A DNA stretch of 64,000 bases from Henricia sp. BOLD:AAB3569. Its lineage: Eukaryota; Echinodermata; Asteroidea; Spinulosida; Echinasteridae. The notes under the pieces are model-generated. The model saw nothing but the letters and a program-made list of their open reading frames with translations, did not search any database and was not told where the DNA came from. Below, piece by piece: positions 6,990 to 35,508 of the stretch (the stretch's first letter is position 1; every line of letters begins with the position of its first letter). Both the position numbers and the translations under genes were made by a program. The DNA is taken from NCBI GenBank assembly GCA_037783545.1, contig JBBELK010000635.1, positions 62,001 to 126,000 of the forward strand. Reading direction: 5' to 3'.

Positions 6990-7073
6990 ACATGCAGTCG
7001 TATCTTCTTTCGTCGAACTTTTCATATCTGTCATCGCATTGACAAATGGCCCCCGAGAACCAGTGACGACAAT
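6990..7073 (-). CDS. Gene D, cysteine-core exon
   Basis: 84 bp between TTGCAG and GTAAGT, phase 1 at both ends, four cysteines with the CQCD core. The minus-strand frame continues upstream of the acceptor only by chance. Confidence 0.7.
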
Positions 7074-8811
7074 CTGCAATCAAACGGACAAAATTATTGT
7101 AATAAACATCTCTGTGAGAAGCTTTTTTAGGAGTCGTTTTAATGATCTCGAAGTAAAGAAACCAAAGTCTGAATTGGTATACACGGTGTCTCCCCCTCCC
7201 CCAAAAAGTCCAGGCCAAACCATGAAGCCTCGGAATATAGGTTTCCCAAGGTTCCAAATCTTCTAGCACGAAAAATTAAAATCTGTCATCCAAATCAATG
7301 AAGACAATCAGACGTTATGTCATTGATTGTGCAGCAAAGTTACATCCTAGTTCATGAACAAGATATGATTATTTGACAAGAAATGGCCGTCCAGTTCAGT
7401 ATAAGTCTTCTTCTTTTGAAGGATTTTGCGACTTAAAGGGACACATCGGCTTTGTTGGGCTATTTTGGGCTCGAAATAGACCCATACATTATTCTGAAGC
7501 GCTTTCCAGAGTAAATTAGATATATCCTGAAAAGACGCCGTCAAATTTGGCTGTTTTTGAGCATTTAAAAAAAAATTCAAGGTCACGTGACGTTTTGGAA
7601 CCAGATTCTGGTTCCGAAAAGTCACGTGGTCTTGTGAGTTAGTTGCATTTCCAGCCGTATGAAAGTTTCTTACTGCAGAACTGCACCAAATTCGACTCTG
7701 ATTTTCCCCAAATATTTATAAGTAATTGACAAAAGAGAGACTATTTATACAGGTATGAAACAAAGTTAAACATAAGTATGAAAATTCGAACATAATTGTT
7801 GGTTTCGAGAGTCCGGAGAACGGGAGCGAGCGCGTGCTACGCTATATACGGCAGGCTACCGTGGAATGTAGGATATTTGCCCCGCGCAGCACGGCAATTA
7901 GCCTGAGTGCACACACGGCCGGGTGTGTTGCTCTGGTGTACGTTCGTGAAGAAAAAAACATGATGCCAACTCCTCAAATGAAACCGGAAATTCCTATTCG
8001 GTCGTCCGGGCTTACCAGTGAAATCGTGAGCGGAAAATTGGAGATATCCTGAGCAGGAGAAGAGCGAATCGTTTGTGACAAAGTCGTGAGGCTCGCGCGT
8101 AGTTGCAACGGCTGGTAAAGCGTTTTTGTTAATTTTGCACTTTTGTAAATTACGGGATATTTTGATCTTTTTTCACAACAACCATCAAAAAAGTATTTTC
8201 AATGCTGCTACATCACTAAATCATGTAAACAGTAGGCCGGTGTGTACCTTAAAGTCGTTACCCCTATGAGGTTCTTCAGCTTAGCCACGAAGTGCGAGAG
8301 AAATTCTTAGTTTTAGAGGTGGGAGGAAAACCCCACACACCAACGTGTGGGGAAAATCGACGGAATCAAGCAGGGACTGAGATAACCCAATCTACACGCG
8401 GACGGGATTCGAACCAGGGCCGCATTGTGGAAGGCGAGGAAAGATCCGCTACGCCAACCTGATTCCCCTATATATAAGACAATAGGCAGTCAACTGCTTT
8501 GGTCAATTTTAAAAGATTTCTTATCAGGATCTGGGGAAATATATATTCTGAGGTTGCTTGGCTTTGCCTTTGGGGTGGGGATGGGGAGAAACGCCCTGTA
8601 TATCCTTACTTTGTTGTTTTCTGCCACGTGATGACCCACGACCATGCGGGTACGCCCTTCTGTCCATTTGGAGGTCGTCCTCGTAAGCGTTTCGCTTCTG
8701 CATCTGCTCAAAAATGTCCGAGTCCAAATCTTCGTCGTCATCGTAAAATGCAGTTACCACCGAAAACAGCACAGCAACGGCTAAAAATGTAAGAAGTGTC
8801 CTAGACGCCAT
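6990..8811 (-). CDS. Four-cysteine cationic peptide precursor, gene D (two coding exons found, 3' end missing)
   Basis: Coding exons 8610-8811 and 6990-7073. Exon 1 encodes 67 residues: signal peptide (MASRTLLTFLAVAVLFSVVT, cleavage after AFY or earlier), an acidic prosegment (DDDEDLDSD), a KR site at 39-40, an RR site at 51-52, then an RG/K-rich run (HGRGSSRGRKQQ). It ends in phase 1 at AAA|GTAAGG. The second exon follows TTGATTGCAG and gives NCRHWFSGAIC, then QCDD and a final C, so C-x8-C-x1-C-x13-C. It ends in phase 1 at a consensus donor (ATGT|GTAAGT), so a further short coding exon should lie below 6,990; I could not identify it. Reading through the donor instead would end at 6,940. It has the same plan and intron phase as A, B and C; antimicrobial function is inference. 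Confidence 0.72.
8320..8472 (-). repeat. tRNA-derived SINE
   Basis: Read on the minus strand it has a GGCGTAGCGG head, a B box GGTTCGAATCCCGTCCG, then ATTGGGTTATCTCAGTCCCT. The body matches the plus-oriented copy at 47.5-47.65 kb. Confidence 0.7.
8610..8811 (-). CDS. Gene D, first coding exon
   Basis: 202 bp; ATG directly follows an acceptor-like AATCAAG, as in gene A where ATG follows GCAG. Signal peptide, acidic prosegment and two dibasic sites. Ends phase 1 at GTAAGG. Confidence 0.75.
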
Positions 8812-9099
8812 CTTGATTGATCGATTTTTTACCTGTTGTATATTGGGAAGATAATTTTTTACACTGATTACCATGAAATTGGATTTTAAATTACACCCCC
8901 CGCCCCCCCACACCCCACAAAAAATAAATAAATATAATAGTAATATTAATTTTAAGAAATAACAAACATTAAAATGTGTTATTGCTTTCGGTTTGGCACC
9001 GTGACAGAAACTGATATAAATTGCACCTCTTGTTTTATAACTTCTCTTTCGTGGACATAGTTTTTGATTAAAAAATCGATAAAACAAACAGTTACGTTT

Positions 9100-9940
9100 T
9101 AGTTACTCCAGAAATACAAATTACCATTTGTTATGACTTGGTGAATTTTACTCATGAAAAAGCTAATGACTTGGAAAAACTAAGAAAGGTCATCTTTATT
9201 ATAATTTATTATTTTTTTACAACGTAAAATGTAAAGGTCTCAATCCCAAGCAAGCACATGTGATTGCATCCCTTTAAACTGCCTTTAGTAGAAATGGGGA
9301 GCTTAATAGTCATCAATAATTGGAATTGAATACTGATGCCATAATCTCAGTGAAATATGTCCTATCAAGCAACTCGGAAAACGGAGCGATGCGCATAAAT
9401 CCCTTCATTTTGATCTTTGCGCAGAATAAGACGATTTCTCAAGGGACGGACTTGAGTTCGGTGTCAAGTGTTTTAGCACGTGTCTTATGACAAAAACCCA
9501 AATTAAATTGATTCATCAAGAGCATTTGGGTGAAGAATTATCCGACAAACCGATCCCCTTGGGTGACTTTGAATGATGGTGCGGAACTTTATTTTCTGTA
9601 TGCATTGGAGATGCTTCCGCAGGAGTCAATTACTCATTTTTTTCGCAAATGCTGTTTTGCGACGTGCTTGAAAAACAAAAGAAGCTTTGGAAAACTTGTT
9701 GCAGCCAGTTTCTTTTAAATCCATTTTTGGTTCTCTGCTTTTGAAATGAAATGTGGGGAAAAAATATCACAAAGGCTTTGTCTTTTTTGGCGTCATCGCA
9801 ATGTCACAACGAAAAATGTACAACGAAATTATAATAAAAATGACAGTCGATAGAGATTGATTTTGTAGACGAAAGATTCGCGCCGTGCCCCAAATGGTGT
9901 CTGCCCAGGGGGTACCGGTAAGAACATTTGCAGACATCAA
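9100..9940. other. No gene recognised
   Basis: AT-rich, with only chance frames. A TATA-like TTATAAAAC (minus strand, 9,032-9,041) is a possible promoter for gene D, about 225 bp above its ATG; the linking non-coding exon was not found. Confidence 0.4.
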
Positions 9941-9945
9941 CAACG

Positions 9946-10088
9946 GGGGGTAGGTCCTGTCGTTTTCAGACTTATTTCAAGTCTGAGATCGCGTATACTT
10001 CTCCAAATATAGGTACCCAATGCAAAACTGGTATATTATACACGAAGTCACACTTGAAATAAGTCTAAAAACGACAGGACCTACCCCT
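9946..10088. mobile_element. Foldback element
   Basis: GGGGTAGGTCCTGTCGTTTT followed by AGACTTATTTCAAGT is mirrored at the right end by ACTTGAAATAAGTCT and AAAACGACAGGACCTACCCC. About 140 bp, non-coding. Confidence 0.75.
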
Positions 10089-10099
10089 GTACCGATCCT

Positions 10100-11700
10100 C
10101 CCCCTCCCACCTCCCACCCCCCACTCACCCCGGTCTGCCGCGGGTAAATGTGCGTATCATTTCAATAATTTGTGATCGATCACTTGAGATTACATGTAGT
10201 GAAATGGTAGATTTAGAGTTAGTTAAATTTTAGGTCTTGGAGTCGTATTAAATTTTCATTAAACCTGTGGTTACATAAAATATGTATACTGTATTATAGA
10301 GTGCAGATTCCATTGATAAAAATAGCATATCGTGGCCCTTTAAACTTTGTCATATCCTCTCTACTGTTATACATGTTTTAGGCCTATCTTAGGTTATTGA
10401 CGCGATATAAAGATACATGTACTATATGGCACCATATCAAAACTTGCCAGAAAATTTACGAAACTGCGAATTATACAATTTATATATAAAGAATAAAACA
10501 CACCTTTAAAATTATACAAAAACACCACACTAAACAAACGCCCCAAATTATTTCAGTGAATTAATACCCAAAGTTTTATCGACAAATTCACATAGTTTAT
10601 TTTGGCTTATCGATGTCAAATTGTCTTTGTATATGGTCTGCTCTGTAAAGTTACACGCAGTACAAGACAATTCTGTAAAGGAATTATTCAAAGAATGTGC
10701 GAAATTTCCCTTCCTTACCTTTTGATAATGCCAATCTTTTAATATACTTAATTGCAACTCAATAGGAGGTTTCGTAATGAATGCAAACTCTACGCATACT
10801 TTAATAACAAAAGTTGCTCTGATGACGACAACAAAGCTTGTCCGGGGCTTGTCCTACCTAGCAACAACTATTGTATGCAAAATGAATTCCAACCATATAG
10901 ATTGAATTTAAAGTAACAGTGAATGAAATAGCTCATCACAATGTCACAAGATTTGGATTTGAATACAGGCATTTTAAAAACTGCCGAATTTTCGATTGTT
11001 AAAACGAAAATAATTCACGACGAAATAGTCAACCTTACCTGCTCAGAATACGCCGATCTCCTCTCGGTATCAAATCCATGTCCGAAAACCGACCAAAATC
11101 GTCATTTAAATAGTTTCGGGTAACTCCCACGAGAATGTTTTTCCAGAAGAAAAAAAGGCCATACTTCAGTGCGGTTCATAAATAGATGGGGCAACGCCCA
11201 CACTTCGCCAACACGCGAATCTGCGTGATGCAACGTTTCAGTGACTACGTGTGGCACGTGACGCCTCTCTAATTTTGCACCACACACCCTATCCCACGTG
11301 CAATTAAGAAATTTCTCCCTCGTTGTGTACAAGAAGATCGTTGGAGCATCTTAGATCAAACGACAAAAAGTACAACCGCCAACGTTTGACATTGAAGGAT
11401 TGGGTGAAACCATAAACCCATAAATTAGTGGAACACTTATACATAGTTGCAATTAATTTGGGAACCATGTGCGTGCGCGTACCAATAACTTTACGCAAAA
11501 AAATGGAAGGTGTGTCTACCCTAGTGTGACAAAATGTTTGACTTAAGATAGTTCGTATAGAGAAATCGTCATAGCTTGACGTAACTGCACACCCACCGAG
11601 AATGTTTTATTTGTATTTATTATTTTTATTTTATAACTTTAAGCTCGCCGAACCCACAAGGGTGACGACCGTGCCACGGGCAAACCGCCTTCTATCCTCG
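10100..11700. other. No gene recognised
   Basis: A minus-strand frame at 10,548-10,757 contains CTAC and KLCEF but has no convincing splice sites or homology, and I do not call it. The rest is AT-rich intergenic sequence. Confidence 0.4.
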
Positions 11701-11704
11701 AATC

Positions 11705-11880
11705 AAGTGACTTGTTGTTGCCGTATAGTTGGTATGACATCTATGAAGGCCTTTCATGCCATCAATACTATACGATATTAGCATTATTTTTAATTATTAA
11801 CTTGAGATGACGAAGGAGATGCAGTTTTAGAAGTGAGAGGGAATACCCAGGAAATCTCCTGGGGGAAATTCCATGGTTAG
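11705..11880 (-). repeat. SINE fragment
   Basis: Carries the AAGGCCTTTCATGCCATCAA, GATGACGAAGGAGATGCAG and TTTTAGAAGTGAGAGG blocks shared with the 26.4 and 29.3 kb copies. Confidence 0.6.
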
Positions 11881-11952
11881 TAACGTTACATAACTTACTG
11901 GAGTTCTTTTATCTGTTATATCAACACGCAAGCCTGTCAGTTCTCCATTTTA

Positions 11953-12313
11953 TTATTATTATTATTATTTCTTTCTTGGTATTCATACCAAGGATTCCTC
12001 AATAGTGCTCAGTGCACTGTCACTCGGAAGCGTGAGGAAACCCATGAAGAATTATAATTAGAAACTGGCCAGAGACACCGGGGAATCCCCTTGCTCTTCA
12101 CGAAAGAATGCTCTGGGATCTTTAAAGTGTGTTACCTAACACACTGGACCAACGGCTTTACATCCCTTCCGAAGGACGGAACAAGTATGTGATTAAGTGC
12201 CTTTCTTAAGGGCACAAGTGCCACAACCTGTCACGGCCCGGAATCGAACCCACATTCCAGTACTGGCACAGGAACTTGAGTTCGACGCGCTAGACCGCTC
12301 GGCCATAACACCC
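11953..12313 (-). repeat. tRNA-headed SINE, full length
   Basis: On the minus strand it starts GGTGTTATGGCCGAGCGGTC (A-box region), has B box GGTTCGATTCC, and ends in a TTATTATTATT-like tail. The body matches 4.83-5.13 kb. The head resembles a Leu/Ser-type tRNA but is not a folded tRNA gene. Confidence 0.8.
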
Positions 12314-12879
12314 CATTTTGGCACCGTCAATGCATCTCGCCAACATCTACTGGACAGTAATAACTAAAATCATCTAGCTCCGTTTTGTGAATTGTAATAA
12401 AAAATTTAATCTTGGTTAGTAACGTTACAAAGAAAGGACATTGAAAAATTCATGTCTTGAAAAAAAAGGTTCCCTCAAGTGGGACACAACTGAAACAAAC
12501 AATTATATTTCTTTCATTGCTTGTTTACTGGCGTGTGTTTTTGTAAATGCCAAGTCACACCTACTCTCACCAGTTTCAAGATCTGTTGACAAATCACGGT
12601 TAGTGACGTTACAGTTAGTCACGTTACAGCTGTCCCATGCCTACACAATTGATGACATTTCCCACACAAAATCAATTTGCAGTATTTCTTTCCACAACTG
12701 TTCAACACCAAACATGTTTTTGCAGAATCTGTTTACATAATGCTATCATTTAAGTAAGTTTATACCCAAAAATATAATTGCAAATTTTGTAGAAATGTCA
12801 ACCTGATCATGGAATTGCCCTGGGGAAAACCAGTTAACCCACGCGGTCAGATAGGACCTAATCCAGACATGTGATGATG

Positions 12880-12962
12880 TTAATTTTATGGCATCTTCTA
12901 TGGAGTACATTAGCTTTAACGTAAAATGACGAATAAGTGCAGTTTTAGAAGTGGAGGGACAA
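12880..12962 (-). repeat. SINE fragment
   Basis: Short truncated copy with ATGGCATCTTC and GCAGTTTTAGAAGTGGAGGG. Confidence 0.5.
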
Positions 12963-13560
12963 AAATAATCCGTTTTCCGAATATGTTTGTGGAATTACAA
13001 TACGGATAATACTGTGTGTCACTATAGTCCGTAAAATTATGGAACACGGTTCTTCAATAAAAGGGTAGGAGAAGTCCGTAAAAATTGTACGTTAAAATAC
13101 AGATTTTCCCGTAAAAATACGGATTTTTATTATTTGTTTTATGTAAACAGTAAAGGTTCTGCATGTCATACTCTCCCGTTGATATATTGCTACTGGATCT
13201 AAATGTTGTATTATATTGTACCACGCGGAATTTGTAAACCATGCAAAACCCAATCTCTAAAAGTAGTTTGGGAGGCGCAACTGACCAAATTTCAAAGATA
13301 AATCGTTTGTTATTAAGCGTGTAGCATTGTGTATCGTGCGCGTAAGCTGAAACGGCGCTTTTGCAATTTAATTTTCTCCGCCAACATCAGTTTGTTTATA
13401 CTCGTTTGATTTTTTTTTATTAATCCATAAAATTCCGTGCTGGGGTTTGTCCTATAAATTCCTTTAAAAACTAATAAATTTCCGCGTGCCGCCACAAAGC
13501 TTTAAAGGCGAGAGTGTAGCATGCAGTACCCATAAAAAAATGCTTTCAATTTCTAAGAAA
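12963..13560. other. No gene recognised
   Basis: Several CCGTAAAAAT-type words suggest a decayed repeat. I see no exon. Confidence 0.4.
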
Positions 13561-13579
13561 AGCGAAGGAATAAAGCAGT

Positions 13580-13768
13580 TCATTCGCGCGCAGTTCATTC
13601 GCGCGCATAGTTTGCTCGCGCGGATAGTTTGCTCGCGCGGATAGTTTGCTCGCGCGGATAGTTTGCTCGCGCAGTTCTGTCGCGCGCATAGTTTGCTCGC
13701 GCGCAGTTTGCTCGCGCGCAGTTCTTGCTCGCGCGCAGTTCTTGCTCGCGCATAGTTTGCTCGCGGGC
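13580..13768. repeat. CpG-rich tandem repeat, about 17-18 bp unit
   Basis: About ten diverged units of GCTCGCGCGGATAGTTT and variants (TCGCGCGCAGTTTGC, CGCGCGCAGTTCTT). Long frames rich in ARASKL/REQT across it are repeat artefacts. Confidence 0.85.
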
Positions 13769-13799
13769 AATTCATAATATATAAAAGATACAAGAAACA

Positions 13800-16700: not shown

Positions 16701-16708
16701 TCACGCGA

Positions 16709-16930: not shown

Positions 16931-16983
16931 ACGGCCCGCGCGTGTACGCGCAAATCACATACGCTGTTGGTTGAGGAGCTATT

Positions 16984-17951: not shown

Positions 17952-18062
17952 CGCTATAAAATGCAGATGTCCTTTGATTCCGCGAGATAATAATTTGTGA
18001 GTTATTTGTGCGAACGGCGTTGAGTATTTATAACCAAAAGGACCGGAGAAGTTTGCTTTAAA
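17952..18062 (+). promoter_or_regulatory. Promoter and non-coding first exon of peptide gene A
   Basis: TATA box CTATAAAATG (about 17,954-17,963) with a start expected near 17,985. The exon ends at CTTTAAAG|GTAAGAC (18,062). A second TATTTATAA lies at 18,025. This mirrors the non-coding first exons of genes B and C. Confidence 0.5.
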
Positions 18063-18474
18063 GGTAAGACATTACAATGAAGTTAATATATTAAGACGAT
18101 TTATTTAATATTTCAGTGTTAATGTCATTTTTATTTTAATATTTATTTTATTTTATTTTTTATTTTTTTTGGTTAGTTTACTTTATGAAATTGAAATAAG
18201 TAAAGGTAATTTATATCACAGTTGAAGTACGGAAATGTTTACTGTGACTAAAACAAATTTCCCTGATGTGGTTTTGCCGAGTTACGATTCAATTTTGTTA
18301 CTAAATGATTTTTTAATATTCACCCATCTGTATAAGCCCGCGTAATAATGTCATTCTATATTTGCGAGTGCTCTTTTCTAAGAAAACGTTTGTCACACAG
18401 ACTCGGGGTTGCAGTCGAATCCATGAAAAAACAAATATTTAATGTGATTCTTACACAATTATTTATTTTCGCAG

Positions 18475-18646
18475 ATGATGGCGAGAAAATGTTTGTTACT
18501 TGGGTTTGTTTTCATGGCAATTGTCGCAGCGCCCTCTACGGCATATGAAAGCTCATCATCAGGTGATGACGTCGATGGCGAGTACCCAGACTTGTCTATA
18601 GGACAATACATAGACAAGCGAGGAACTGGGAACCAACGGTTCAGAC
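18475..18646 (+). CDS. Gene A, signal and prosegment exon
   Basis: 172 bp, ends in phase 1 before GTGAGTG. The frame runs on past the donor by chance to 18,726. Confidence 0.8.
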
Positions 18647-19115
18647 GTGAGTGTTTGAACTACTCTGACTTGGCCAAATATATTCATGTTACAAAATGTG
18701 TTGAAATAATAGACCGTTTCGAATAGCTGCCATCTTGTAGGGCCGTTTCTTTGTTCCTGGAAGACATGCATGGTTGCACATTTTGTGCTTACATTGTTGA
18801 CTAATATAAATATGAAAAACTGGCAGCTAGTAGACATTGTCTATAGTGGTATTTTGCAGAAAGGTTGTGTTCAAAACAGAAAATGTCCAGAAAATTATCA
18901 TGTCTATCGATCGCTTTGCATTAGTTTTAAATTATGTTAATGAATTAGAACAAAATGTAATTTCCACGTTTGCGGACGTCGTACACGCTATTTTATTTGT
19001 TTTTTCATTGACAGCTTGTGCGCATCCGTTGTACGGAAGGAAAGCTCGGTGTAGATGCGACGTAACTAAAAGTGTCCACGACACGAGATACATGCGATGT
19101 GTTAATCTTCGGTGA
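18475..19115 (+). CDS. Four-cysteine cationic peptide precursor, gene A
   Basis: Coding exons 18475-18646 and 19015-19115; predicted precursor 90 residues. Exon 1 follows TTTCGCAG and starts ATGATG: signal peptide MMARKCLLLGFVFMAIVAAP (cleavage near STA), acidic Ser/Asp-rich prosegment (SSSSGDDVDGEYPDLS), KR at 48-49, then GTGNQRFR. Donor AGAC|GTGAGT, phase 1. Exon 2 follows a T-rich tract and TTGACAG and gives PCAHPLYGRKARC, RCD, then two more blocks to a final CVNLR stop. Spacing is C-x10-C-x1-C-x13-C, looser than B and C. The released peptide would be about 41 residues and strongly basic. AATAAA at 19,367. An antimicrobial or signalling role is inferred only from architecture. Confidence 0.82.
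18709..18845. mobile_element. MITE inside intron of gene A
   Basis: TAGACCGTTTCGAATAGCTG on the left and a decayed inverse (CTGGCAGCTAGTAGAC, TGTCTATA) on the right. Internal words (GACATGCATGGTTGCACA) match elements at 31.98 and 40.95 kb. Confidence 0.7.
19015..19115 (+). CDS. Gene A, cysteine-core exon
   Basis: 101 bp from the TTGACAG acceptor to TGA; supplies all four mature cysteines. Confidence 0.8.
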
Positions 19116-21639: not shown

Positions 21640-21986
21640 GTGGTATATAACGGCCAATGAGACGCCCACGATAAGGAAAAATCCAGCTGAGTTAAAACTT
21701 AATAGATTTTGGTTGAACGCTTCGGTAATTTTGACCGACAGGAGGAGAAATCTTATAAGGGCACCGGGTTATGAAAGAAATATATTGTTTAATACTTTGT
21801 TCAAGACAACGCGTCATATCCATCAAATTAACGTATCGGCGCGCGTACAGACACGTGTTCGTTCTGCTTCGGTGGCGGTCGCAGTGAAGCGTAGAAGACT
21901 CAAAAAGTATATAAATCCAGGTGTTTTCGTTGCGGTTTCACAAATACTTCTCTCCTCTACCAGATCGACAAATCAACGCAGATCAG
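21640..21986 (+). promoter_or_regulatory. Promoter and non-coding first exon of peptide gene B
   Basis: Matches the gene C promoter over about 300 bp: CGGCCAAT (CCAAT element), AAAACTTAATAGATTTTGGT, GTTCGTTCTGCTTCGG, GAAGCGTAGAAGACTC, then TATA box TATATAAAT (21,909) and CCAGGTGTTT. The first exon ends AGATCAG|GTAAGC at 21,986. Conservation between paralogues supports functional sites; stimulus not deducible. Confidence 0.65.
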
Positions 21987-22444
21987 GTAAGCATATACAA
22001 TAGATTGTATTTTTTTTCTGGACTTGCTGCTCAAAAGTTGCGCCATGAGCATCTTTTTTGATGGATACCGGCGCATTATAAATGTTCATTATTATTATAT
22101 AGCAATTTACAGTGTAGTGTTGCACTACTTGGAAGCAACCCTACCCTGCACCGACGCTCCGTTTTGGACAAGCCGTTCCTTTAATTGTTTTAATTAATTT
22201 AAAGTTTTCGACTAAATTTCAAAAATATTAAACCTCTACAAGTTGCCCTTTCTAGTAGAGCCAAAAAACGGGATGAATGCACATTTAAGCTTTAGTGTAA
22301 AGCTCATAACCCAGATTTTGCTGGGCAAACCCAGAATATCTGGTAGGCCTACAGTTGGACTAATACGATCCCCTAGGTGCATCGTAGGATGGGTTTGATT
22401 CCTCCACAATTCTCTTTTATCGACAGTCCCATCAATAATCCACA

Positions 22445-22619
22445 ATGAGCGCCAAAGTTCTCCTGGCTCTGGCCCTAGTGGCCGCCCTGGTGGCTTTTGC
22501 CAGTCCATTCTACTTGGATGAAGACGTGGAGGAAGAGGGCGGAATTACTGAAGACGAACTGGAGTCAGCGGCTCTGCCATTCTTGCTGCAGAAGAGGGGA
22601 CGAGGCTTTAGACTTTCCG
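22445..22619 (+). CDS. Gene B, signal and prosegment exon
   Basis: 175 bp coding, phase 1 exit. 88% or so of residues in the signal segment are identical to gene C by eye. Confidence 0.85.
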
Positions 22620-24993
22620 GTAAATATTTCTCTTTATTGTTTTAAGCTAAATTGCTATTTTATTATAGAATATAAAAAGTTATCAGCTTTCATTTGGTAC
22701 TAAGAACGTAAATTTCCGTCAAGGATTAATGCCAGTCGATTAAAAACAAGAAATAATAAGACAGGGCCTGTCTTTTATTCGACAGGGTTATGACGTAAAT
22801 GTACATGTGCGCGTACATGTGTACATTGTACACATATTATGTACATATGAGCATACGCGCACATGTACAACATGTTTCAAGAAAAAGGCTTGTATCTCTA
22901 ATTCCCGACGTCGGAAATTTAATTTGTTAAAATATTTTTCGTCACAGAGACACGTAAGCTTTCTAAATTCGTTCGCTTGTGTGAATTAATTTTTAAAAAT
23001 CCTTTCACCCAAATACGGACAGTGCAACTTTAACAATTACATGTACCAGTTTGCAAATTCCTATTAGGGAAAGCGCTTGAAAAACGGATGATAATGACCC
23101 GGCTGGTTTTAAACATGCAAATTATAGTTTGGCTCTAATCAGTGTGTGTGGGGAATAACGCAGTCTTGTACCTACCTCCCACAGCGGACGTCCCATTGTT
23201 CCTCTTTTGTTTGGACTTAGTTTTTTTTTGGCGACTTCTCTAATTTGTTTTGTACACGATTCCAAATCGCGGACGTCTTTGGCAATCGCGGACCCTATTG
23301 TTCCTATTGTTAAACGTCCCCCATTTGAATACAGAAACCTGCACACACTATTGCGGAAAAAACCACGCTTGTGCACACTGCGCAGTGCTTACCGCATTGA
23401 ATGAGCTTTGAAACGGAAAATTCCACTCCGGTAACATGTAGCTTCTCTGGTGCCTCATTGGTTACGCGTTGGAAAGGTCAGCGCACCGTGGTCAAAGTTT
23501 AACCAATTTGAACTTTGACCCCAACTCAAAACTTTGTGCTCAGTGGACGCAGTGTCCGTGCTAAAGATACAGAACAGTAATAATTAGATGGGACGCGCGT
23601 ACAATACGCGCGTTTTGACTGGGGGCACCCATTGGTCACGTGAATAGGGTCAACAATTTGCAAAGGCGCATTGCAAGGCATGAGTCAAAGCATAAGGCTA
23701 CTGATTTATCATCCGAAATCCCTTGACCTCCATGTCAACCGCAAAGGCGCCCAAACAAGTCACGACAAATTAAACTATAAACCCCTTGTATATTCACCGT
23801 AAATGTATTAAATGCCTGTACCTTTACGGGAAATATTTACTGATTTAACCGTATATCCAAGGACTAAGCTCTGTATGATCTTACGATCTTAATAATAACG
23901 ACGGGAATACATATTTAAGCAGACAAAGCATATTAGACAGAATATATTCCTTAAAATTGAGACAGAAATCTTGATTTATTTTTGGCGCCAGAATTGACGT
24001 TTTTGCTCGCTTACTTCCATTTGGGTGACTGCAATTCTGCTGACAACCAAGACACAAAATTCCTCAAGTTAATTCTTAATTCCTGCCAAGTCGAGTTTTT
24101 GCACAGGGCATTGTGATTGGGGTTATTAAATTGCTCTACTATTTCATTACATTTGGGATTGTGCGGGCAGGTCCTGGTCTTTGCAAGGCCAACAATCTCG
24201 AAAACCACTAGCTATCCCAATGTAAAACTCTTTGAAAGAGGAAAGGTACATGTACACATTTGATTGGTTTAGATTACCTGCGACTGTGTATAGAGCAGTA
24301 TAAACATTAAATGGCCACTGAAATGGTATTTTTATCAATGAAATCTATGCTATGGAACTGTCCAAAGAAACCAAATTTTGAAGTTGTTTTGGGGGTTAAA
24401 ATCAAGTTTGTTTTGATTTTTAATGCCAATAAAATATTACATATTCATGATCAAGGTTGTGATGTCACATTAGGGAAACACAGGAAAATCTCACTCAACT
24501 GTACAGAAAATATTTCAGTATTTTCTCTAACTTGCTGAAACATTTGTAACCCATGACTGTTTGGGTTTGTTTTACAAGTTGCCTGTTGTAAGCCATGTGA
24601 AAACTAAGGCTGGAAACTGCAGCACTTTTCCACAATTCAATTTTAAAGTCTTATGTTTTTTCTTTGCTTTTCTGCTGCGTTCCTAAAGTGACATGCTCTA
24701 AATAGCGCCCTCTTTTTTTGTGAGTTTCTGCAAGAAAAGTTTCAGTTGAAAAGTTGAAAATGCCACCTTTTATTTATAGGTCATCAAAACAAAAAAGTGG
24801 TAATGTCTTTCTAATCGAGTAATCATTCATATTCAGCAAAAGCTGTGCATAAAGTTATTTAGCATTTCAGGCCCTTTAAGTCATTTCATTTGTTCTTTTT
24901 GTCAAAGGCTGTGTCGACCCCGAAACCGGCAGACGATGCCAGTGCGATCGCAAAAGTAAGGGCCGTGGTAACATGAATCAATGCAAGAAGTAG
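22445..24993 (+). CDS. Four-cysteine cationic peptide precursor, gene B
   Basis: Coding exons 22445-22619 and 24908-24993; precursor 86 residues. The first follows TTTATCGACAG with 18 nt of UTR. Signal peptide MSAKVLLALALVAALVAFAS, acidic prosegment (DEDVEEEGGITEDELE), hydrophobic LPFLLQ, KR at 50-51, then GRGFRLS. Phase-1 donor TCCG|GTAAAT. Exon 2 follows GTCAAAG: GCVDPETGRRCQCDRKSKG and on to QCKK, stop TAG. Spacing is C-x8-C-x1-C-x12-C. The released peptide is about 35 residues and very basic. The donor of a 3' UTR intron lies 5 nt after the stop (ATCG|GTAAGC). Intron 2 holds a dispersed repeat. Paralogue of C; likely host-defence peptide by architecture, but a hormone-like role cannot be excluded. 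Confidence 0.88.
24340..24893. repeat. Dispersed repeat in intron 2 of gene B
   Basis: Collinear with 4,010-4,552. Its right end (GGCCCTTTAAGTCATT) stops about 14 bp before the branch/acceptor region of the cysteine exon. Confidence 0.6.
24908..24993 (+). CDS. Gene B, cysteine-core exon
   Basis: 86 bp from the CAAAG acceptor to TAG; encodes CVDPETGRRCQCD and the final cysteine. Confidence 0.85.
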
Positions 24994-25067
24994 AATCGGT
25001 AAGCTTACCACTATAGGCTTGGGCGATCAGAGGTTGTAGTCGAGTCCATCATAAGTCCCTGGGTCTT

Positions 25068-25209: not shown

Positions 25210-25561
25210 TTCATGTCGCAAGCTATTCAAATGAACTCCAACAAAGGCATTCCTTTGTGCGTGTTTATCCTTTGCTTCTTATTACCAACTTGTGATTTTA
25301 GCGGCTCTTGACTCGTGGTATACTTGTGACGGACTCGACTACAACCCTGGTCTGTAGGGCGAATCCTCGCTGGAGTGAATTAGCATTATCGATTCCCATT
25401 TTTGATTCTCATTATCGATTCTCTTCCAGGAAGTACCTGGCGATTCTGAATCTTAATGGTGCAGACATAATTCTAGTTCCAATTTTTGTTTTGAAAATGA
25501 AATCAAATGGAATCATGACATATGGAATAAACATATTCTGTATTTGGTGTTCAAATTTTAG

Positions 25562-25690
25562 GTACCGTTGGTGGACATCTTTTTACGTAGCCTTGAATAA
25601 AGTAATGGAGTTGACGGCAGTAGGACCGCAGAGCACCGCAAAAAATGGCTTTTAGGTGACGTCCTCTTGTGCCACACTTGAAATTAAATG
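25562..25690 (+). other. Gene B, conserved 3' UTR exon
   Basis: After CAAATTTTAG; matches the gene C exon at 36,047 over GGACATCTTTTTACGTAGCC, GGAGTTGACGGCAGTA and GGCTTTTAGGTGACG. AATAAA at 25,596 and ATTAAA near 25,683. Extent of the exon is estimated. Confidence 0.6.
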
Positions 25691-25929
25691 TTAAGCCCGA
25701 TGCCAAATTATCAGTAAGCATAATTTCTGTGCGTCATTTTGTAACAAAACGACGAGCATGATTTAAGTTGCATGCGGAAGAGAAGTATTTTCGCAAAATT
25801 TAACTTGCATTCTTGTCCAACTGCCATTGTCATATACAGCACGATATGCGGCAGAGGGTATCCCCCTACCATTGTTCCCCTATTGTGTCTTAAACATACA
25901 AGGAATTTTGAAGGAATTTCTTTGAGTTT

Positions 25930-26333: not shown

Positions 26334-26339
26334 CCATCA

Positions 26340-26530: not shown

Positions 26531-26752
26531 ACATAGGGGAACATCTTTACAAGACATTAAAAACCCCAACATTGTCTTTTAAAAAAATATATATTGTCTG
26601 AATCCTCCCAAATACCCGAACAAAAGCATTTTTTTCCCTTCTATTTTGTCATAGACAACTAAATGTGCTTGTGCTAGCTTATTAAACTGATTTATATAAC
26701 TGCAACAGTTACGTTGTTTGATGGTTTGGTTAATGGTCTAAATACCTCTGCA

Positions 26753-27451
26753 TAGTCTTGGCCCAAGACTACTCTAGTCGATATTGGTTTGTGTACGCGT
26801 TGGCCATTCCCAGTAGTGGGCCCTCTTGCAGCACTAACTGGCCAGCCCTTTGCTCACTAGAGTAGTCTTGGAAATTTCTCCCGGAAGTTCAGCATTGGGG
26901 GCGGTACCGTTTTATGTAAATAGCTGCAGAGGGTTTTACGATGGCACACAAGGGACATGGCATACCACAGATATCTTTGCAAATATTTGCAATGTCGCAA
27001 TTATCTTCATAAACAAATGTATTTTGCGATGTCATACGCCTTTGCAAACATGTTTGTAAATATATTCGCAAACATTTGCCAAGAAACTTATGCCACCGAA
27101 AATATTAGCAACGATAAAACGGTCATGTTCGATGATTCTTGTAAGCCGCCTTATATTTTTCAAACCATTCGAAGCGCGTGCACGCGGTGTATTTGGGTCA
27201 CGCTCTGCGGTCGACGCGCTGTATTTGGGTCGCTCGCTGTATTCCCACGCTCTGCTGTATTTGGGTCACTCGCTGATTGGTTCCCTAGGAAAGCCTAGGC
27301 AAAAACAAAGAAAAAGTTAAAACTTCCGGGAGAAATTCCCAAGACTACTCTAGTGAGCAAAGACTGGTCCGTTAGTGCTGCAAGAGGGCGCACTATATGG
27401 CCAACGCGTACACAAACCAATATCGACTAGAGTAGTCTTGGGCCAAGACTA
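26753..27451. mobile_element. 699-bp non-autonomous DNA transposon with long TIRs
   Basis: Ends TAGTCTTGGCCCAAGACTAC and its inverse; the inverted arms continue, with gaps, for more than 100 bp. Flanked by a 9-bp direct repeat ACCTCTGCA at 26,744-26,752 and 27,452-27,460, read as the target-site duplication. No transposase frame. A 9-bp duplication suggests a Mutator-like origin, but this is inference. Confidence 0.85.
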
Positions 27452-27495
27452 ACCTCTGCAAAGAGTTGGTGTCCATAATACATTTCTTGATATCA

Positions 27496-27693
27496 GGGGC
27501 CAATTTCATGGCGCTGTTTAGCACAAACATTTGCTGAGCACAGACTTGATTTGCTTTGTCTTAAAAAATCGTATGTGGTACGTTTTGCTGAAAACACAAT
27601 TTGACATACAATTTTGGATGGAAAATCATTTTACAAAGCCAAGAAATTCTGTGCTAAGAAAATTGTGCTAAACGGCGCCATGAAATTGGCCCC
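27496..27693. mobile_element. MITE, GGGGCCAATTTCATGGCGC ends
   Basis: GGGGCCAATTTCATGGCGC and the exact inverse GCGCCATGAAATTGGCCCC bound a 198-bp element. Confidence 0.85.
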
Positions 27694-28183
27694 AGTTTAC
27701 CCACCAGTCCCTTTTTAATTGTTTACGTCACGTTTGAGTGATTGCGCGCATGCTCAATAAGCCTTTCGCGTGTAATATTTCAATATTGCTGACGCCCTGA
27801 AATCACTTTCAAATGGAGGTAGGCTACAGTTTACAAAATCCACATACATACTACGCTGTGTTTGATACGGGGTGCACCCTAATGCCCAGCTACCAACAGC
27901 CTGGTTACTTTATGCCAGTCTCTCCTACAGTGAACGCAGTATTAATTCTGTACTATACACCTGCCACGTGCACCACATAGCAACAACAATTTAGTCTGAT
28001 CAAGTGGATACCGAGTGTGCACGTAAAAGGACGTACGTCAATACACGAGATGCTATTCATGCGAAACGCGGAAAAGGCTACTGTGACGCAGCGACGCAAA
28101 AGGACAGCTATCTGCTGCCACCATATGTCTCAGTTAAGCCAACCCCTTGCCGCCCAGCCCCCATTGTGCCGTCTGTTTTGCAG

Positions 28184-28310
28184 ATTTAGCAATGACATTT
28201 TGAAAACCGATTTTGTTTGTTGTGGCAGTCATACAGCGTGACCACCCTCGTGCTATGGAAGTCTCATTATATTCTGCTTGACCAAGTTCTAAGTAGAAGA
28301 TGGAATAGGA
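28184..28310. repeat. Dispersed repeat fragment
   Basis: Similar to 20.90-21.02 kb. Confidence 0.45.
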
Positions 28311-28799
28311 TTTGCTGTACGAGTCATTAACAAAATGCACCTGCATAATTATGCTTGGGAAATATTTCGGCTTAAAATGCGAAATGGTACTTGTAACAAT
28401 TCAATGTATAGGATTATTTCGTATGCACCCAATATTGCGCTTTTCTGAGGTATACACGTATATTCCTCACCCCACATTTACATTTGTGGAGTTATTTTAT
28501 TTATTTATTGAATTTATTTATTCACCACATCCAACAGCGGAAGGACCGCCAATTACGGGAATGGGATCAATTAACATAAATAATTATCAGTAAAAGTTCT
28601 GTAAACATAAATGAAGCATTTAAAGCATTCAAAATAAAACATAAATAAACAAAATTAAACAAAAAGAACGACCAACAACTAAAAATTAATGAACATAATA
28701 AGAATTTAAAAAATTACACCGATTTGATTATGTATACAAAAATAAAGCATTCGAACAAGTACATACATGTACATAAAACAATACCCAGGAGAGGATACA

Positions 28800-29168
28800 T
28801 TAACATGCTATGCAATTAAAAACTGATAAATTGACAATGGTCAGGCTTAGTGAGACAAAGGATAATATAATACATGTTTTACACAGAAATTGTACGTACA
28901 TGTAGATTTTAGCTAAAAAGAGCATGGTTAACCGTTTGCGAAAGGAGTTAAGAGAAGGTGCACCAAACACATCACATTTCCCATGGAGCCCATTGTAGGT
29001 GGACGAAATCCTTGAGATAAAGCCACGCTTTGTCACCTCAATGCGACTCCATGGGACGTGGAGGATGTGTTTGTGTGCATGCCTTGTCTGTATTGCTGGA
29101 GAGTGTGAGCTAAATGGGTTGGCATCTGTAGTAGTAAAAAAGTTGTGGAAATGTTTATACAAAAACAA
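28800..29168 (-). mobile_element. Fossil LINE: C-terminal end of reverse-transcriptase ORF
   Basis: The 122-residue frame has the tail pattern of non-LTR retrotransposon ORF2: an HNFF..TDANPFSSH segment, RHAHKHILHVP, RGFISRISSTYNGL and APSLNSFRKRL. The WNxLP box has decayed to YNGL. The AT-rich tract to about 28.48 kb fits its 3' UTR. Upstream polymerase motifs are absent, so it is a 5'-truncated dead copy. Confidence 0.65.
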
Positions 29169-29249
29169 TCATTAACATATCTTCTGTGTTTTATATGTTA
29201 TCTGCTGTCTTGCAGTTATTCTCTTTTAAATAATTTCTTGTCAGTCAGA

Positions 29250-29495
29250 ATTGATGATGATGATGTTGTTGTTATGGCATCTTCGGCAACTAAGGTCCTT
29301 TATACCGTTTTAGCTTTAGCTATACTTTATTATCAACTTGATATGACGAGGAAGGAGTTGCATTTTTTAGAAGTGAGAGCTAGGGAAAACCCCAAGAGAA
29401 GTACCCGGGAAAACCCACGCGGTCAATTAAGTAGGGACTGCAAACCCAATCAACATACACGCCCCGGATTCGAACCCGAGGAATTTTTAGACACG
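29250..29495 (-). repeat. tRNA-type SINE, longest copy of its family
   Basis: From GATGATGATGTTGTTGTTAT to CGCCCCGGATTCGAACCCGA. The minus strand reads a B box (GGTTCGAATCCGG) near the 29.49-kb end. Abuts the LINE fossil. Confidence 0.65.
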
Positions 29496-29689
29496 TCACA
29501 TTTTAGTAGTCTATTATAAAATTTAAAAGTGTTGTATAAATTCACAGTGGACGCTCGACATCGACAGGAAGACTACGGAATCACAACACCTTATCTTAAT
29601 TATGATTTGCAGTGATTTTAAAATAAATTGCATTTACTGCTATTATATTTCTATTCTACATGAAAGCTCCGAACCTACCATTATAACAA

Positions 29690-30065
29690 ATAACACACCT
29701 AGATTGTTTTCGACAAAGGAGTTGTCTTGATTGGTTCTCGGATAAATCTCGCCGACCAATGAGGAATAAATTTAGCTCCGAACCTACCATTACAACAAAT
29801 AACATGCCTATATTGTCTTCGACAAAGGGGAATATCTTGGAGTTGTCTTGATTGGTTCTCGGATAAATCTTGCCGACCAATGAATGATCGACTTAGCAAC
29901 AAATTTGCAAAATGTGACAGCCATTTTGACCAGAGGTAAATTGCACTATAAATCTGTGCGCGTCACGGTAAGCGTAATTTGCCTGATATAAGTGGGTACA
30001 CAGATGGCGAATTGTCATGGATGGTTCGCTCAGGCAATAGGCCGAAGTCGGAAAAGTAGTCCAAT
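29690..30065 (-). repeat. Dispersed repeat, inverse copy of 21.22-21.48 kb, internally duplicated
   Basis: The block GAGTTGTCTTGATTGGTTCT then CGGATAAATCT.GCCGACCAATGA occurs twice (29.71 and 29.84 kb). Confidence 0.6.
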
Positions 30066-30397
30066 TAAGCGTCTCCTGATAAAGCAAAATGCGACTTTTC
30101 ATCAAAATAACACCTTGGGTGTCACAAATTTGGTTTCCACATTACGTCTTATTTATAACTACAGATGTTTGTTTGACGTGACATCGTATTATTCTTATTT
30201 AATTTACAGCATCCCGGAACGACATCACATCGTTCCTCCGCGACCACGCGGCTGTGCTGGACAGTTCGTCAAGTGGAACTATTCCCGAACCGTCGAAATG
30301 GTTTCTCGTGCAATTGCCTTTTGGTAGAATCTGTCCAATGTTAGGCCCGTACAACCGAGGAAAGTTTGCTGTAATGACATACAGCCTCCTTTGGTGG

Positions 30398-30530
30398 GGT
30401 ACCGTGGCCGAGTGGTTAGGGCCATTGACTCGCAATCATGGGTGAAAACTTGGTTCGAATCCGGCTGCGGTACCTGTGCCCTGGGCAAGGCACTCAACCA
30501 CACTTGCTCCATCATTCCGTTTAGTTAGTG
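30398..30530 (+). repeat. tRNA-headed SINE
   Basis: GTACCGTGGCCGAGTGGTTA (A-box head) and GGTTCGAATCC (B box), then CAAGGCACTCAACCACACTT as in 4.83 kb. Not a foldable tRNA gene. Confidence 0.7.
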
Positions 30531-30559
30531 CAAGGGCATGTTCTCCATCACCCTGTTTA

Positions 30560-31980
30560 CACTTGATCCCGAGCTCAGGGTCGAACACCGAGCTCGGGAT
30601 CAGCCCCGGATCACAAACTGAGTGTAAAATGCTCTCGGGACCAAATTGGCCCCGGATCAGTCCCCGAGAATTTGGTCTCGCGATTCGGTAGCCCCGCGTA
30701 GCAAAGACCTCCGCGGAAACGATCATAAGCTGCATCAACCCTCCTCATCTGCTGTTGAGTGAGTGACCAGTTTTGAGACGAATAACAAACGTTTCGAGAA
30801 ATATGACAACAATAAAACTAAACATTTTCCTACCGAAGGAGCAAAACGAAATAGGCTATTCATCATGATTTAGGGGCCATCCATAAAGTACGTACGCATG
30901 AAATGCGGACTTTTTAGACACTCCTCCCCCTGTACGTATGGCTTACGCAGTGGCTCCAACCCCCTCACCCTTTACGCATTCCATATATACCGTACCTCAG
31001 CATTGGTAAGCATTGGTAAATGGTTCAGTACTACATGTAGTACGATTAGCATCTCGCCTCCTAAGTCTGAAACAAATGACAATGTATAGATTTCTGTTGC
31101 ATCAGTAACTGCAAATTTAATGGAAAACCTAAATTGAGGAGTGAGACAAATGTGAGATGTGTGAGAAAAATGTGTGGATTGTCTATGTTTTGTACATTTC
31201 GGTTTGCGTACATACGCATTGGCTTGGACCCCCTCCCCCTGTACGCATGGTGTACGCAATGTCAACATTGGTGGGGTACAATGGCGGACGGTGGCTTCAA
31301 TTTTAGACGACGTTGCTATATCCAGTGTATATATATCGATGGTTGACACGCATGTTTATGCACACCATCCAGTATTTGTTGGCGTACGTAGTGGCATTTA
31401 AATTCCCTTCACGCCTGGAGTAGCCTTTTGTGATTGGATGGTCATGTCAGTTAATTAATCCAGTGACACCGTCAATCTGGGGTTCATTTATGAATATTTA
31501 TATATTAGTGGAATTTAGACTCAAATACAAGTCGTCGTTTAATGGATCAGTTGAAAAATAGGGTCATATTTGGTCTAAAATGATCGCCTTTTGAGTAAAC
31601 TCGAAAGAACAGCCACTTTTTTGAGTAAACAGGAGTTTTCTAGAGTTTTATTTTCCTGACAACATCGTATATTTACTAACCGCATAATACCTCGAGGGTG
31701 GAAAGATTACAGCAATGCATTTTGCTCCATTTTTGTTTCAATGATAACAAAAATGCTAAAGTCGTCGGAAAAATTGTGTACTGTTTGCATTACACAATTA
31801 GTCTTGAGTATTGACGACTACATGTGCATTGCGGAATATAGAGAGAACCTAATGCACATACAGCAAGTTTGCTGCATGCAAACACAGTGTTGAATAGACG
31901 AACCCCAAATTAGCCCGTTCTGCGCATTAAAACCGAGGCTTTTCGTGTCAAATCCGCAGTACGCCAGTGCGTTTCAAGTA
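30560..31980. other. No gene recognised; repeat-rich
   Basis: A small hairpin (TGATCCCGAGCTC / GAGCTCGGGATCA) lies at 30,561-30,602. Phrases CCATCCATAAAGTACGTACG and CCCCTGTACGYATGG (30.87-31.25 kb) recur, suggesting a decayed MITE. No exon recognised. Confidence 0.4.
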
Positions 31981-31983
31981 CTG

Positions 31984-32132
31984 TATAGACCATATCGAAT
32001 AGCCGCCATTTCGTGGGGCAGTTTCTTTGTTCCTTGATGACATGCATGGTTGCACATATGTGCTTCCATTGTTGAACGGTTTAAGTAACAAAAGGTGCCC
32101 CACGAAATGGCGGCTATTCGATACGATCTATT
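31984..32132. mobile_element. MITE, ATATCGAATAGCCGCCATTT ends
   Basis: TATAGACCATATCGAATAGC and CGCCATTTCGTGGGGCA at left are mirrored exactly by TGCCCCACGAAATGGCGGCT and ATTCGATACGATCTAT at right. The best-preserved member of the family also seen at 18.71 and 40.95 kb. Confidence 0.85.
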
Positions 32133-32389
32133 GTACATGCAGTGACTGAATGAGTATATACGTGCGTGTGCTGTTCTGCGTGGCATTTTGGAGTGATCGT
32201 GCATTAAAGTGCGTATACGTTCACTTCTAGGTTTGATAAAGAGGCTCTTCGTGTTAAGCAACGGCCGGAAATGCACGCAGACCGTATTGGGGATTTGTCT
32301 ATACGTTTCTTCTAATTCTGTATAACACACGTACAATATAGTAACTAAAATATCCGGCCTTGCGGACAGATTAAACGCCTACTACTAGT

Positions 32390-32648
32390 ATATATATCGG
32401 CCAATTAAACGCCTACGATTAAAAAGAGGGTCCGTCGAAATAAAACTTAATACATTTTGGTTGAACGCTTTGGCGATTCAATTCTCAAAGAGAGGCGTGT
32501 TGTTCGTTCTGCTTCGGCGGCGTTCACAATGAAGCGTGGAAGACTCGGAAGGTATAAATTCAGGTGTTTCTGTTGAAGAAGTGCCATAAGTACTTCCCTG
32601 CTCATACATCATAGATGCTCTAAGATCGACAATATCAACACAGTACAG
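32390..32648 (+). promoter_or_regulatory. Promoter and non-coding first exon of peptide gene C
   Basis: CGGCCAAT, AAAACTTAATACATTTTGGT, GTTCGTTCTGCTTCGG, GAAGCGTGGAAGACTC and TATA box GTATAAATT (32,552) parallel gene B. First exon ends AGTACAG|GTAAGG at 32,648. Confidence 0.65.
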
Positions 32649-32864
32649 GTAAGGATACGCTGTAGACTTTCTGTATTTGGTGCTCAGTTACACATTGTGA
32701 TAGTGTAGGATTAAATATAGTATACATGATTGGTAAACTGTTACAAATAGTTTTATCCCCCTGTGTGATTGAAGATATGCATGATTAAAACCAACCTGAG
32801 CAAAAACCAGCTCCGTACTTCGTCTATAACTTTTGAGAAAACAGTAAAAAAAGGGTTTGCAGTC

Positions 32865-33025
32865 ATTTCGTCCCAAAACCACTTCGCCCTGAACCATTTC
32901 GCCCTGAACCACGGCCTGTGCACGAAGTGGTTTTCGGGCGAAGTAGCATTTGGACGATGTAGTGTTTTGGACGAAGTGGTTTGGGGGCTAAATGACACTT
33001 GGGCGAAATGGTTTTGGGGCGAATT
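32865..33025. repeat. GGGCGAARTGGTT repeats in both orientations
   Basis: ACCACTTCGCCCTGAACC, ACCATTTCGCCC, then CGAAGTGGTTTTCGGGCGAA, CGAAGTGGTTTGGGGG, CGAAATGGTTTTGGGGCG. A mirrored short-unit array in intron 1 of gene C. Confidence 0.7.
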
Positions 33026-34050
33026 GAATTTGTCTCATGAGACGAACAATAATTGTTTTACTCATTTCTCAAAGACTATAGCACTTCAGACAAAACCATT
33101 TATGGGGAGGTTTTCTACGGTCATCATGTTTATATTGTGTGGGTTAGGCTGTGAACATTTCTGATTTTCGAGATACCAATCATGTATACATGTAATGCCT
33201 TTAAGGCGCATTTTCCTTTAAAAGTAATTTCTTATTCTTTGTAAGGACATGTAACTACTTTTTAATTTTATTTGAAGAGTGCCTCGTTATACAGTCGAAC
33301 TTCGTAAATAAGACATTTTCCCTGGGACTTTACATATTACCATGATCACCATTGAAATGAAACAACCAAACTTGAGATGAGAGAAAAATTGCAAGGGCCT
33401 TATCGGGATTCGAACCCGATACCTTGTTATACGAGGAATGTTGTATTATCAGAAATGAAGCACAATAAATTAGAACCCATCATTTCCTTGTTGTACTAAT
33501 TTCGTATTACTAGTGGTCTTATTGAAGTTCTACTGTATATTAATTATGCTTTATTGCAAAAAGTTAGCCTAATTAACTATTATATGGGTCTTTTATTGCA
33601 TCTACATGTATAAGAATACTTATACTTTAGCGGATACTTTAGTGGATTTAATTTCACACTATTTAGTGGAAAATGTCTTAGAGGTAGGAGTTGTTTATGC
33701 TTGTCTTACATTGGGACTTAAAGACAGATTATGATTGGTAAACCTTTAAAAACAGGAACAGCATTACGTAACTAAAAAATAATGTTGATAAACTGCCTTG
33801 CAGAAATTTCAGCCACACAGATGCAGCGATACTCAAGGAAACCATAAAAATCCATGCATGATTTTTGTGTTAAATGTATGGTAAAAACAATTGTCTATAC
33901 CGACAATTTCTTTTTTTAAAGTAGCATTTTTTACGGAAAAATCACGTGGTACGTGTTTGTTACTATTGCTGTCAAAACATTTAGTTAGGGTTTTTCTTGT
34001 CAACTCATGAACTTAAGTACAATTTCGGGTAACTGCAAATGGTACACTTC

Positions 34051-34640
34051 CATCAAAACTTTGGAAACACCTTGAAAGTTTTAGGTTTTTGAGAGGGAAG
34101 TATTATTTTGTTTATTCATAATAAACCAAGCTATTAAAGCAAACGGAGGTGTAAGGGGTATCTGCATGAGAGAAAGCAGTCATCTGGAGTGCTGTCCATC
34201 ATGGAATGGCCTGCCCAGTCACCTGATCTCAATCCCATTGAGATGCTCTGGGAGGAGTTGGATCGTAAGGTCAGAAAGAAATGCCCAATCAGCTCAAAAA
34301 AAAACTTTGGAGAGTCTTAAAAGAGGCGTATTTCCACTGAATGTTTGGAGAAACTGACAATCGGGATGCAGAGATTGCGTGTATCTGTCAGCTGCTAAGG
34401 CGCGATTCTTTGATGAACATCAAGTTTAGCCGTTTCTTTTTGCATGCTCTCCAGTTTGTTGATAAAGCCCACTGCTGAGGCCGAAGATGGCACTAAAATT
34501 AACATCTATATATTGCTTTTTGTTAGAATACACCTACATTTGCTTTCACAAAATTTGCTTTCACAAAATAAACATTCACAAAAGTATACGTTTTCTTCTA
34601 AAAAACCTGAAACTTTCAAGGTGTTTCCAAAGTTTTGATG
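34051..34640 (+). mobile_element. Tc1/mariner-type element, internally deleted
   Basis: TIRs CATCAAAACTTTGGAAACAC and its inverse; TA dinucleotides near both ends fit a TA target. The interior encodes the Tc1 transposase signature WPAQSPDLNPIEMLWEELDR (about 34,203-34,262) with no upstream DDE catalytic region; a frameshifting poly-A follows. Lies in intron 1 of gene C. Confidence 0.85.
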
Positions 34641-34793
34641 GGTAGAGTATATTTTAGGGTTTTAAGAACCATTAGGATGCTTGTCAGAATGTGAGATCCC
34701 TCCACAATTCGCACAATATACAAATGAAGGTGAAGGGTAAAATATTGCATGCTATACTTATTGTTTTATCAGCAGTCTCGGCACGAATCTACA

Positions 34794-34974
34794 ATGAGCG
34801 CCAAAATTATCCTGGCCTTGGCCCTAGTGGCCGCCCTGGTGGCGTTTGCCAGTCCATTCTACTTGGGCGAAGACGAGGAACAAGACGTGGGCGCAGTTGC
34901 CGAAAACGAATTGGAGGCAGCGACTTTGCCATTTTTGTTGCAAAAGAGGCGAAGGCCAGGCCAACGATTGTCAC
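34794..34974 (+). CDS. Gene C, signal and prosegment exon
   Basis: 181 bp coding, phase 1 exit at GTAAAT, the same donor word as gene B. Confidence 0.85.
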
Positions 34975-35508
34975 GTAAATATTTCAAAACTATACTTTTT
35001 ATAGCCTAAACTATACTTTTTATATCCCGTACATGCAATGTCCAAACAGCATAGGTAGGCTACCAAACTCTTGTGAGATACTACTTTGACTGCAAGTGAA
35101 TGATATTTCGAGCCGTCTGAAATATTTTGTGCTGTTATTTATCAATTGGGGCATGGCAAACAGCTTAATTTGTGCATAAACATATGGGGCCTGCCAAACA
35201 ATCTGTGCTTACCCTGGAATATCCGAGTCAAGTTTTACTAAGGCTCAAAGGTGCACCCACCATGTTTTAGTTGGGTCTATCTGAACGGGAAACTTGTGGA
35301 ATTTGAACATTTTGGGCTGAAAAACCTAACAGTAATTAAAATATAAATAAATAATAAAAAACAGAACAAAGCTGAAACTATTCTTTTAATCTAATCTGGT
35401 TTTTTTTTCATCAAAGGTTGTATCGATTTTGAGACTGGGAAAATCTGCCCGTGCGATCGTTCCAAGGCTCGCGGTATCGCCCTAAATAATTGCAGAGGAC
35501 GATTCTAG
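34794..35508 (+). CDS. Four-cysteine cationic peptide precursor, gene C
   Basis: Coding exons 34794-34974 and 35417-35508; precursor 90 residues. The first follows TTTTATCAG. Signal peptide MSAKIILALALVAALVAFAS, acidic prosegment (GEDEEQDVGAVAENELE), LPFLLQ, a KRRR processing site at 51-54, then PGQRLS. Phase-1 donor TCAC|GTAAAT. Exon 2 follows TTCATCAAAG: RCIDFETGKICPCDRSKAR and on to NNCRGRF, stop TAG. Spacing C-x8-C-x1-C-x12-C equals gene B. As in B, a donor lies 5 nt after the stop (AATTG|GTAAGT). Close paralogue of B about 12 kb away; charged tail differs (CKK against CRGRF). Confidence 0.88.
35417..35508 (+). CDS. Gene C, cysteine-core exon
   Basis: 92 bp from the CAAAG acceptor to TAG; CIDFETGKICPCD core. 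Confidence 0.85.

Follow-up and report, generated by a model that had tools for sequence, protein, structure and literature searches.

Do four small genes lying close together in a starfish genome encode host-defence peptides and, if so, are they the whole of a family or part of one? The question is raised by 64,000 nucleotides of Henricia sp. BOLD:AAB3569 (this whole stretch is the window), namely positions 62001-126000 of contig JBBELK010000635.1, here C635, in an assembly (GCA_037783545.1) of 740.7 Mb and 2104 contigs. Judged from its sequence, the window quite probably holds four paralogous genes, A, B, C and D, at one locus for host-defence peptides of the starfish cysteine-rich antimicrobial peptide (CrAMP) kind; three or more further paralogs lie elsewhere in the genome. 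Coordinates are window positions unless a contig is named.

Paired exons and chance expectation

A sequence-only reading had proposed the four genes, and they lie where it put them, A, B and C on the plus strand and D on the minus strand. Each has a first exon for a signal peptide, an acidic prosegment, dibasic cleavage and the basic tail of the mature region, and a second exon for the cysteines. In A the first exon (18475..18646) ends at a GTGAGT donor and the cysteine exon (19015..19115) encodes C-x10-C-x-C-D-x12-C and a stop; in B (22445..22619, donor GTAAAT; 24908..24993) and C (34794..34974, donor again GTAAAT; 35417..35508) the core is C-x8-C-x-C-D-x11-C, also with a stop. The first exon of D (8610..8811), for which splice signals, frame, the second haplotype and a feature scan all speak, ends, read from 8811 to 8610, in a GTAAGG donor, while its cysteine exon (6990..7073), placed by frame and pattern scan, encodes C-x8-C-x-C-D-x12-C with a GTAAGT donor next to it. 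All four introns are GT-AG and in phase 1, the codon before the first cysteine having one base in exon 1, just as had been read. With the aspartate that follows the CxC in all four counted into the last gap, as was done in the proposed C-x(8-10)-C-x1-C-x(12-13)-C, the spacings recount to 10/13 in A, 8/12 in B, 8/12 in C and 8/13 in D, in agreement with it.

Two details called for correction, both in D. A KR site precedes the mature region of A, B and C, and D too has its dibasic processing, but there RR is nearest the cysteines and KR lies upstream. Likewise the range of 35-41 mature residues fails for D, which has at least 43 by the end of exon 2. Since a GTAAGT donor nearly adjoins its fourth cysteine, gene D probably has another coding exon; reading through past the cysteine exon meets, in the haplotype of the window, a stop that is absent from the other, and similarity to the 3' untranslated region (UTR) exons of B and C disclosed no third exon for D, nor for the paralog E introduced below. 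The proposed split of charge stands: the prosegments of A, B, C and D, counted from residue 21 up to where cleavage is predicted, carry -7, -10, -8 and -10, against +8, +7, +7 and +3 in the predicted mature peptides (D to the end of exon 2).

How often would such exons arise by chance? The pattern C-x6-12-C-x-C-[polar]-x9-15-C, run over 176 kb of C635 (positions 1-176000), has four matches, exactly A-D, every one with the aspartate and with a correctly placed AG acceptor. Sixty order-2 Markov controls gave on average 1.75 matches, 0.117 with aspartate, 0.05 with an acceptor and 0 with both. A scan of the same 176 kb for features of exon 1 only again returned exactly A-D. When loosened and extended to 308 kb (the 176 kb of C635, 80 kb of contig C348 and all 52 kb of contig C935), the scans yielded first exons and cysteine exons in equal number, 11 of each, every one with its partner; they make seven genes, four of them present in both haplotypes. 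In 40 order-3 Markov controls of 176 kb the mean was 0 for first exons and 0.075 for cysteine exons. The scans were designed with A-D known and loosened after E, so that for A-D they gauge specificity and are not blind discovery; F and G are the only genes found by scans alone.

Paralogs, haplotypes and duplication

Contig C935 carries the three further genes, E, F and G, built as A-D are. Gene E was first met as a weak match there of the D query (expectation value, hereafter E-value, 1.25), with its intron placed as in A-D and a CTCD core; self-matches aside, D and E match each other best, if weakly (E-value 1.25 in the one direction, 0.345 and 0.915 in the other), and E and B have in common a FLLxKRGRG cleavage block. 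F and G have the core C-x7-C-x-C-D-x9-C. Across all seven the core is C-x6-10-C-x-C-D-x9-13-C (for D through exon 2), the prosegment is acidic (-4 to -10), the predicted mature peptide is basic (+2 to +8) and 35-43 or more residues long, and an intron of fixed place and phase separates the basic from the cysteine-rich part of the mature region. That the cores have only the cysteines and the aspartate in common bears out the strong divergence that had been noted outside the cysteines, and the further proposal of one gene family is upheld by common intron place and phase, by cysteine-aspartate spacing, by the paired exons of the scans and by E as a linking gene.

Genome searches with A, B, C, D, E and G as queries (F was not queried) returned the seven genes, the alleles on C348 and one further match, of the A query on contig C43 (E-value 2.56) within an open frame of 1033 residues. 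Seven paralogs is a lower bound, since single-sequence queries miss distant members, the C query having found B and C only. None of these searches turned up a second allele for E, F or G, and the match of the E query to C348 at D alone implies that the E-F-G locus lies a long way from A-D or is absent from that haplotype. Between the end of C935 (45-52 kb) and positions 11-23 kb of C635 there are several overlapping matches of 96-99%; this is probably a young repeat, and linkage of the two loci is not deduced from it.

Contig C348, in reverse orientation, carries the other haplotype of this region. Among 32 aligned blocks of more than 200 bases, 24 are 91-98% identical and 8 are 79-90% identical, values that agree with, but do not single out, the 5.16% heterozygosity given for Patiria pectinifera in PMC10511450. 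All of A, B, C and D are open in both haplotypes, with 15 coding differences in 273 bases of A, 1 in 261 of B, 5 in 273 of C and 7 in 286 of D. Mature B and mature C do not differ at all, and of the changes in mature A six are replacements and five are silent. The D introns, of 1536 bases in the window (7073-8610) and 134 in the other haplotype, differ by a large insertion or deletion polymorphism.

On their sequence B and C are tandem copies with a common putative promoter and UTR exons. Positions 21856-21995 of B and 32501-32657 upstream of C, spanning promoter and 5' UTR exon, are 72% identical (E-value 1.7e-17), and so, for the 3' UTR exon, are 25555-25712 and 36040-36196 (72%, E-value about 1e-17). 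UTR exons are drawn from this similarity and from splice signals only. Each putative TATA box with 5' UTR exon ends in a donor: in B 21910..21986 (GTAAGC) and in C 32553..32648 (GTAAGG), both from mutual similarity of the upstream regions, and in A 17955..18063 (GTAAGA), from motif and splice signal only. Behind the stop codons, 3' UTR donors at 24999 in B and 35514 in C lead to putative exons at 25562..25712 and 36047..36196, plus strand like the rest, with AG acceptors and with right-hand ends that are not fixed. The putative 3' UTR intron of C contains, at 35738-35932, an inverted repeat with 77% identity that may be a small mobile element, and just upstream of gene C, at about 34170-34300 on the plus strand, is a frame resembling the end of a Tc1/mariner transposase. 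Sites resembling kappa-B within 3 kb upstream occur once in B, once in G and in none of the other five, and are uninformative.

Has exon 1 been kept alike in B and C? Between them silent divergence (pS) is 0.30 and replacement divergence (pN) 0.10 in signal peptide plus prosegment, against a saturated pS of 0.82 and a pN of 0.30 in the mature part, and this inequality at silent sites suggests that exon 1 has been homogenised. Of seven aligned differences between the C alleles in exon 1 and its surroundings, three match B, all near the start codon, and four do not; the three are perhaps what gene conversion would leave. F and G show no such contrast, with pS at 0.69 and 0.60. In both the B-C and the F-G pair pN is below pS, as in translated genes; with this and with small allele counts, positive selection is not shown.

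Host defence or another role

The starfish peptide PpCrAMP reportedly has 38 residues and four cysteines, and its intron is said to divide the mature coding region into basic and cysteine-rich parts. The predicted mature peptide of gene C is likewise 38 residues long. The reading had mentioned a cysteine-rich antimicrobial peptide described from starfish, and there is one: PpCrAMP of Patiria pectinifera (Kim et al. 2018), which PMC11767717 names as the only known sea-star antimicrobial peptide. Reviews class it as a beta-hairpin peptide (PMC12466427) and as the prototype of an echinoderm family (PMC11273428, where the citation number leads to an unrelated paper). Starfish origin and the cysteine-rich antimicrobial class, as these reviews give it, are what the genes here, known from sequence, would share with PpCrAMP. 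Unlike that single peptide they number at least seven, at two sites; their predicted mature peptides span 35-43 residues or more, and some of their cysteine modules are acidic. The sea urchin strongylocins, as described in PMC4805251, are similarly small, secreted, cysteine-rich and cationic, with signal and prosequence, but have six cysteines and three disulfides where these genes encode four cysteines. Centrocins, also of sea urchins, similarly combine an anionic prosegment with a cationic antibacterial peptide, but have two chains and one disulfide, according to PMC10608444, in place of a single chain with four cysteines.

A match of the cysteine exons to unrelated families had been named in advance as telling against the proposal; among A-G no Pfam match exceeds its cut-off. 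A, B, D, E and F lack any at an E-value of 1 or better, that of C to one unrelated profile (0.27) is below cut-off and taken as chance, and G has an equally sub-threshold one (0.27) to a second profile in addition to that considered below. Sequence searches against solved structures, at E-values up to 10, gave nothing for mature A, B, C, E and F; one match of G, to an autotransporter (0.82), and three of D (best 0.13) are taken as chance.

How might such peptides act? The precursor would enter the secretory pathway by its signal peptide, and the acidic prosegment would neutralise the basic peptide until a furin-type protease cut after KR or RR. The four-cysteine module would fold with two disulfides, and the released peptide, in the coelom or on the coelomic epithelium, would bind and damage the negatively charged surface of a microbe. 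The set would diversify as cysteine exons were duplicated and diverged, while exon 1 stayed alike, in B and C perhaps by way of gene conversion.

Several considerations weigh against assigning the locus to host defence of the CrAMP kind. Membership, judged from architecture, is no more than probable. Three cysteine modules carry a net negative charge, -1 in D (incomplete), -3 in F and -4 in G. An uncertain structure model of the cysteine exon of C (pLDDT 65.5; built with the Gly of the genomic frame before the first cysteine, not the Arg of the spliced form) has strands at 2-4 and 26-28 and, between them, a short helix at 15-19, not a clean hairpin. Then the sole near-significant Pfam match in the whole family is that of G to the conotoxin profile (PF02950; E-value 0.03; score 15.7 bits, cut-off 25.1).

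Could the four genes be no genes at all, their exons having been put together by chance in the sequence-only reading? That is scarcely credible in the face of the scans with their Markov controls, of frames that are open in the second haplotype and of a second locus at which this architecture turned up anew. Secreted signalling peptides are a more substantial competitor, as precursors of neuropeptides or hormones that are cleaved at dibasic sites and form two disulfides would also have the signal peptide, the KR and RR sites and the disulfide-type cores seen here. We nevertheless think them unlikely, as seven genes with strongly diverged cores that retain only cysteines and aspartate, and a split of charge between prosegment and peptide, speak against them. 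For the starfish hormone RGP no polymorphism among ten populations is reported in PMC6442644, whereas mature A differs by its replacements between just two haplotypes; the identity of mature B and of mature C between haplotypes weighs against that argument. We also counted for the CrAMP reading the result with a Patiria pectinifera myorelaxant peptide as query, whose Asterias rubens counterparts differ near their N-termini (PMC5656890): 12 overlapping matches at 93-94%, all in one 471-residue open frame on contig C497. This Patiria-like precursor speaks for a starfish, probably one near Patiria. Least expected of the alternative functions is that of defensive or venom-like toxins, aimed at predators or foulers and made from precursors on a conotoxin-like plan. 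The conotoxin match of G would fit them, although it spans residues 4-66 and with them the signal and prosegment that are common to many small secreted precursors, and the other six genes have no match at an E-value of 1 or better to that profile, nor to any other apart from the chance one of C.

Host-defence genes of the CrAMP kind remain our preferred account, and a four-paralog locus with a second of three would make the isolated PpCrAMP one of a gene family and open the expansion, polymorphism and charge divergence of that family to study in starfish immunity. In the literature searched, where subscription papers are thinly covered, we recognised no earlier description of a starfish antimicrobial peptide gene cluster. 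The basic tail is net positive in all seven genes (+2 to +7) while the cysteine part varies from +6 in A to -4 in G, which makes the tail the constant cationic part, and with three of seven cysteine modules acidic the tail may carry the activity. A bolder, and doubtful, extension is that the genes are a modular arsenal, with a conserved exon 1, homogenised between neighbours by conversion, joined through the fixed phase-1 intron to fast-diverging CxCD modules, some of them turned acidic, the killing residing in the tail and the module setting target, stability or binding partner. If this were true, starfish would diversify their defence peptides exon by exon.

Other frames in the window

Four more frames, all on the minus strand, deserve mention. 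At 265-819 is one for a C-type lectin (Pfam Lectin_C, E-value 2.9e-18); the other haplotype has a second lectin match about 2.7 kb away and 81% identical, perhaps a local duplicate. No Pfam match above its cut-off was obtained for a cysteine-rich frame at 60772-61161 that has a hydrophobic, transmembrane-like stretch. A Death-domain frame at 43929-44312 (E-value 3.2e-10) and a ZU5-domain frame at 52394-53155 (E-value 1.1e-15) are each possibly of an immune or apoptosis signalling gene.

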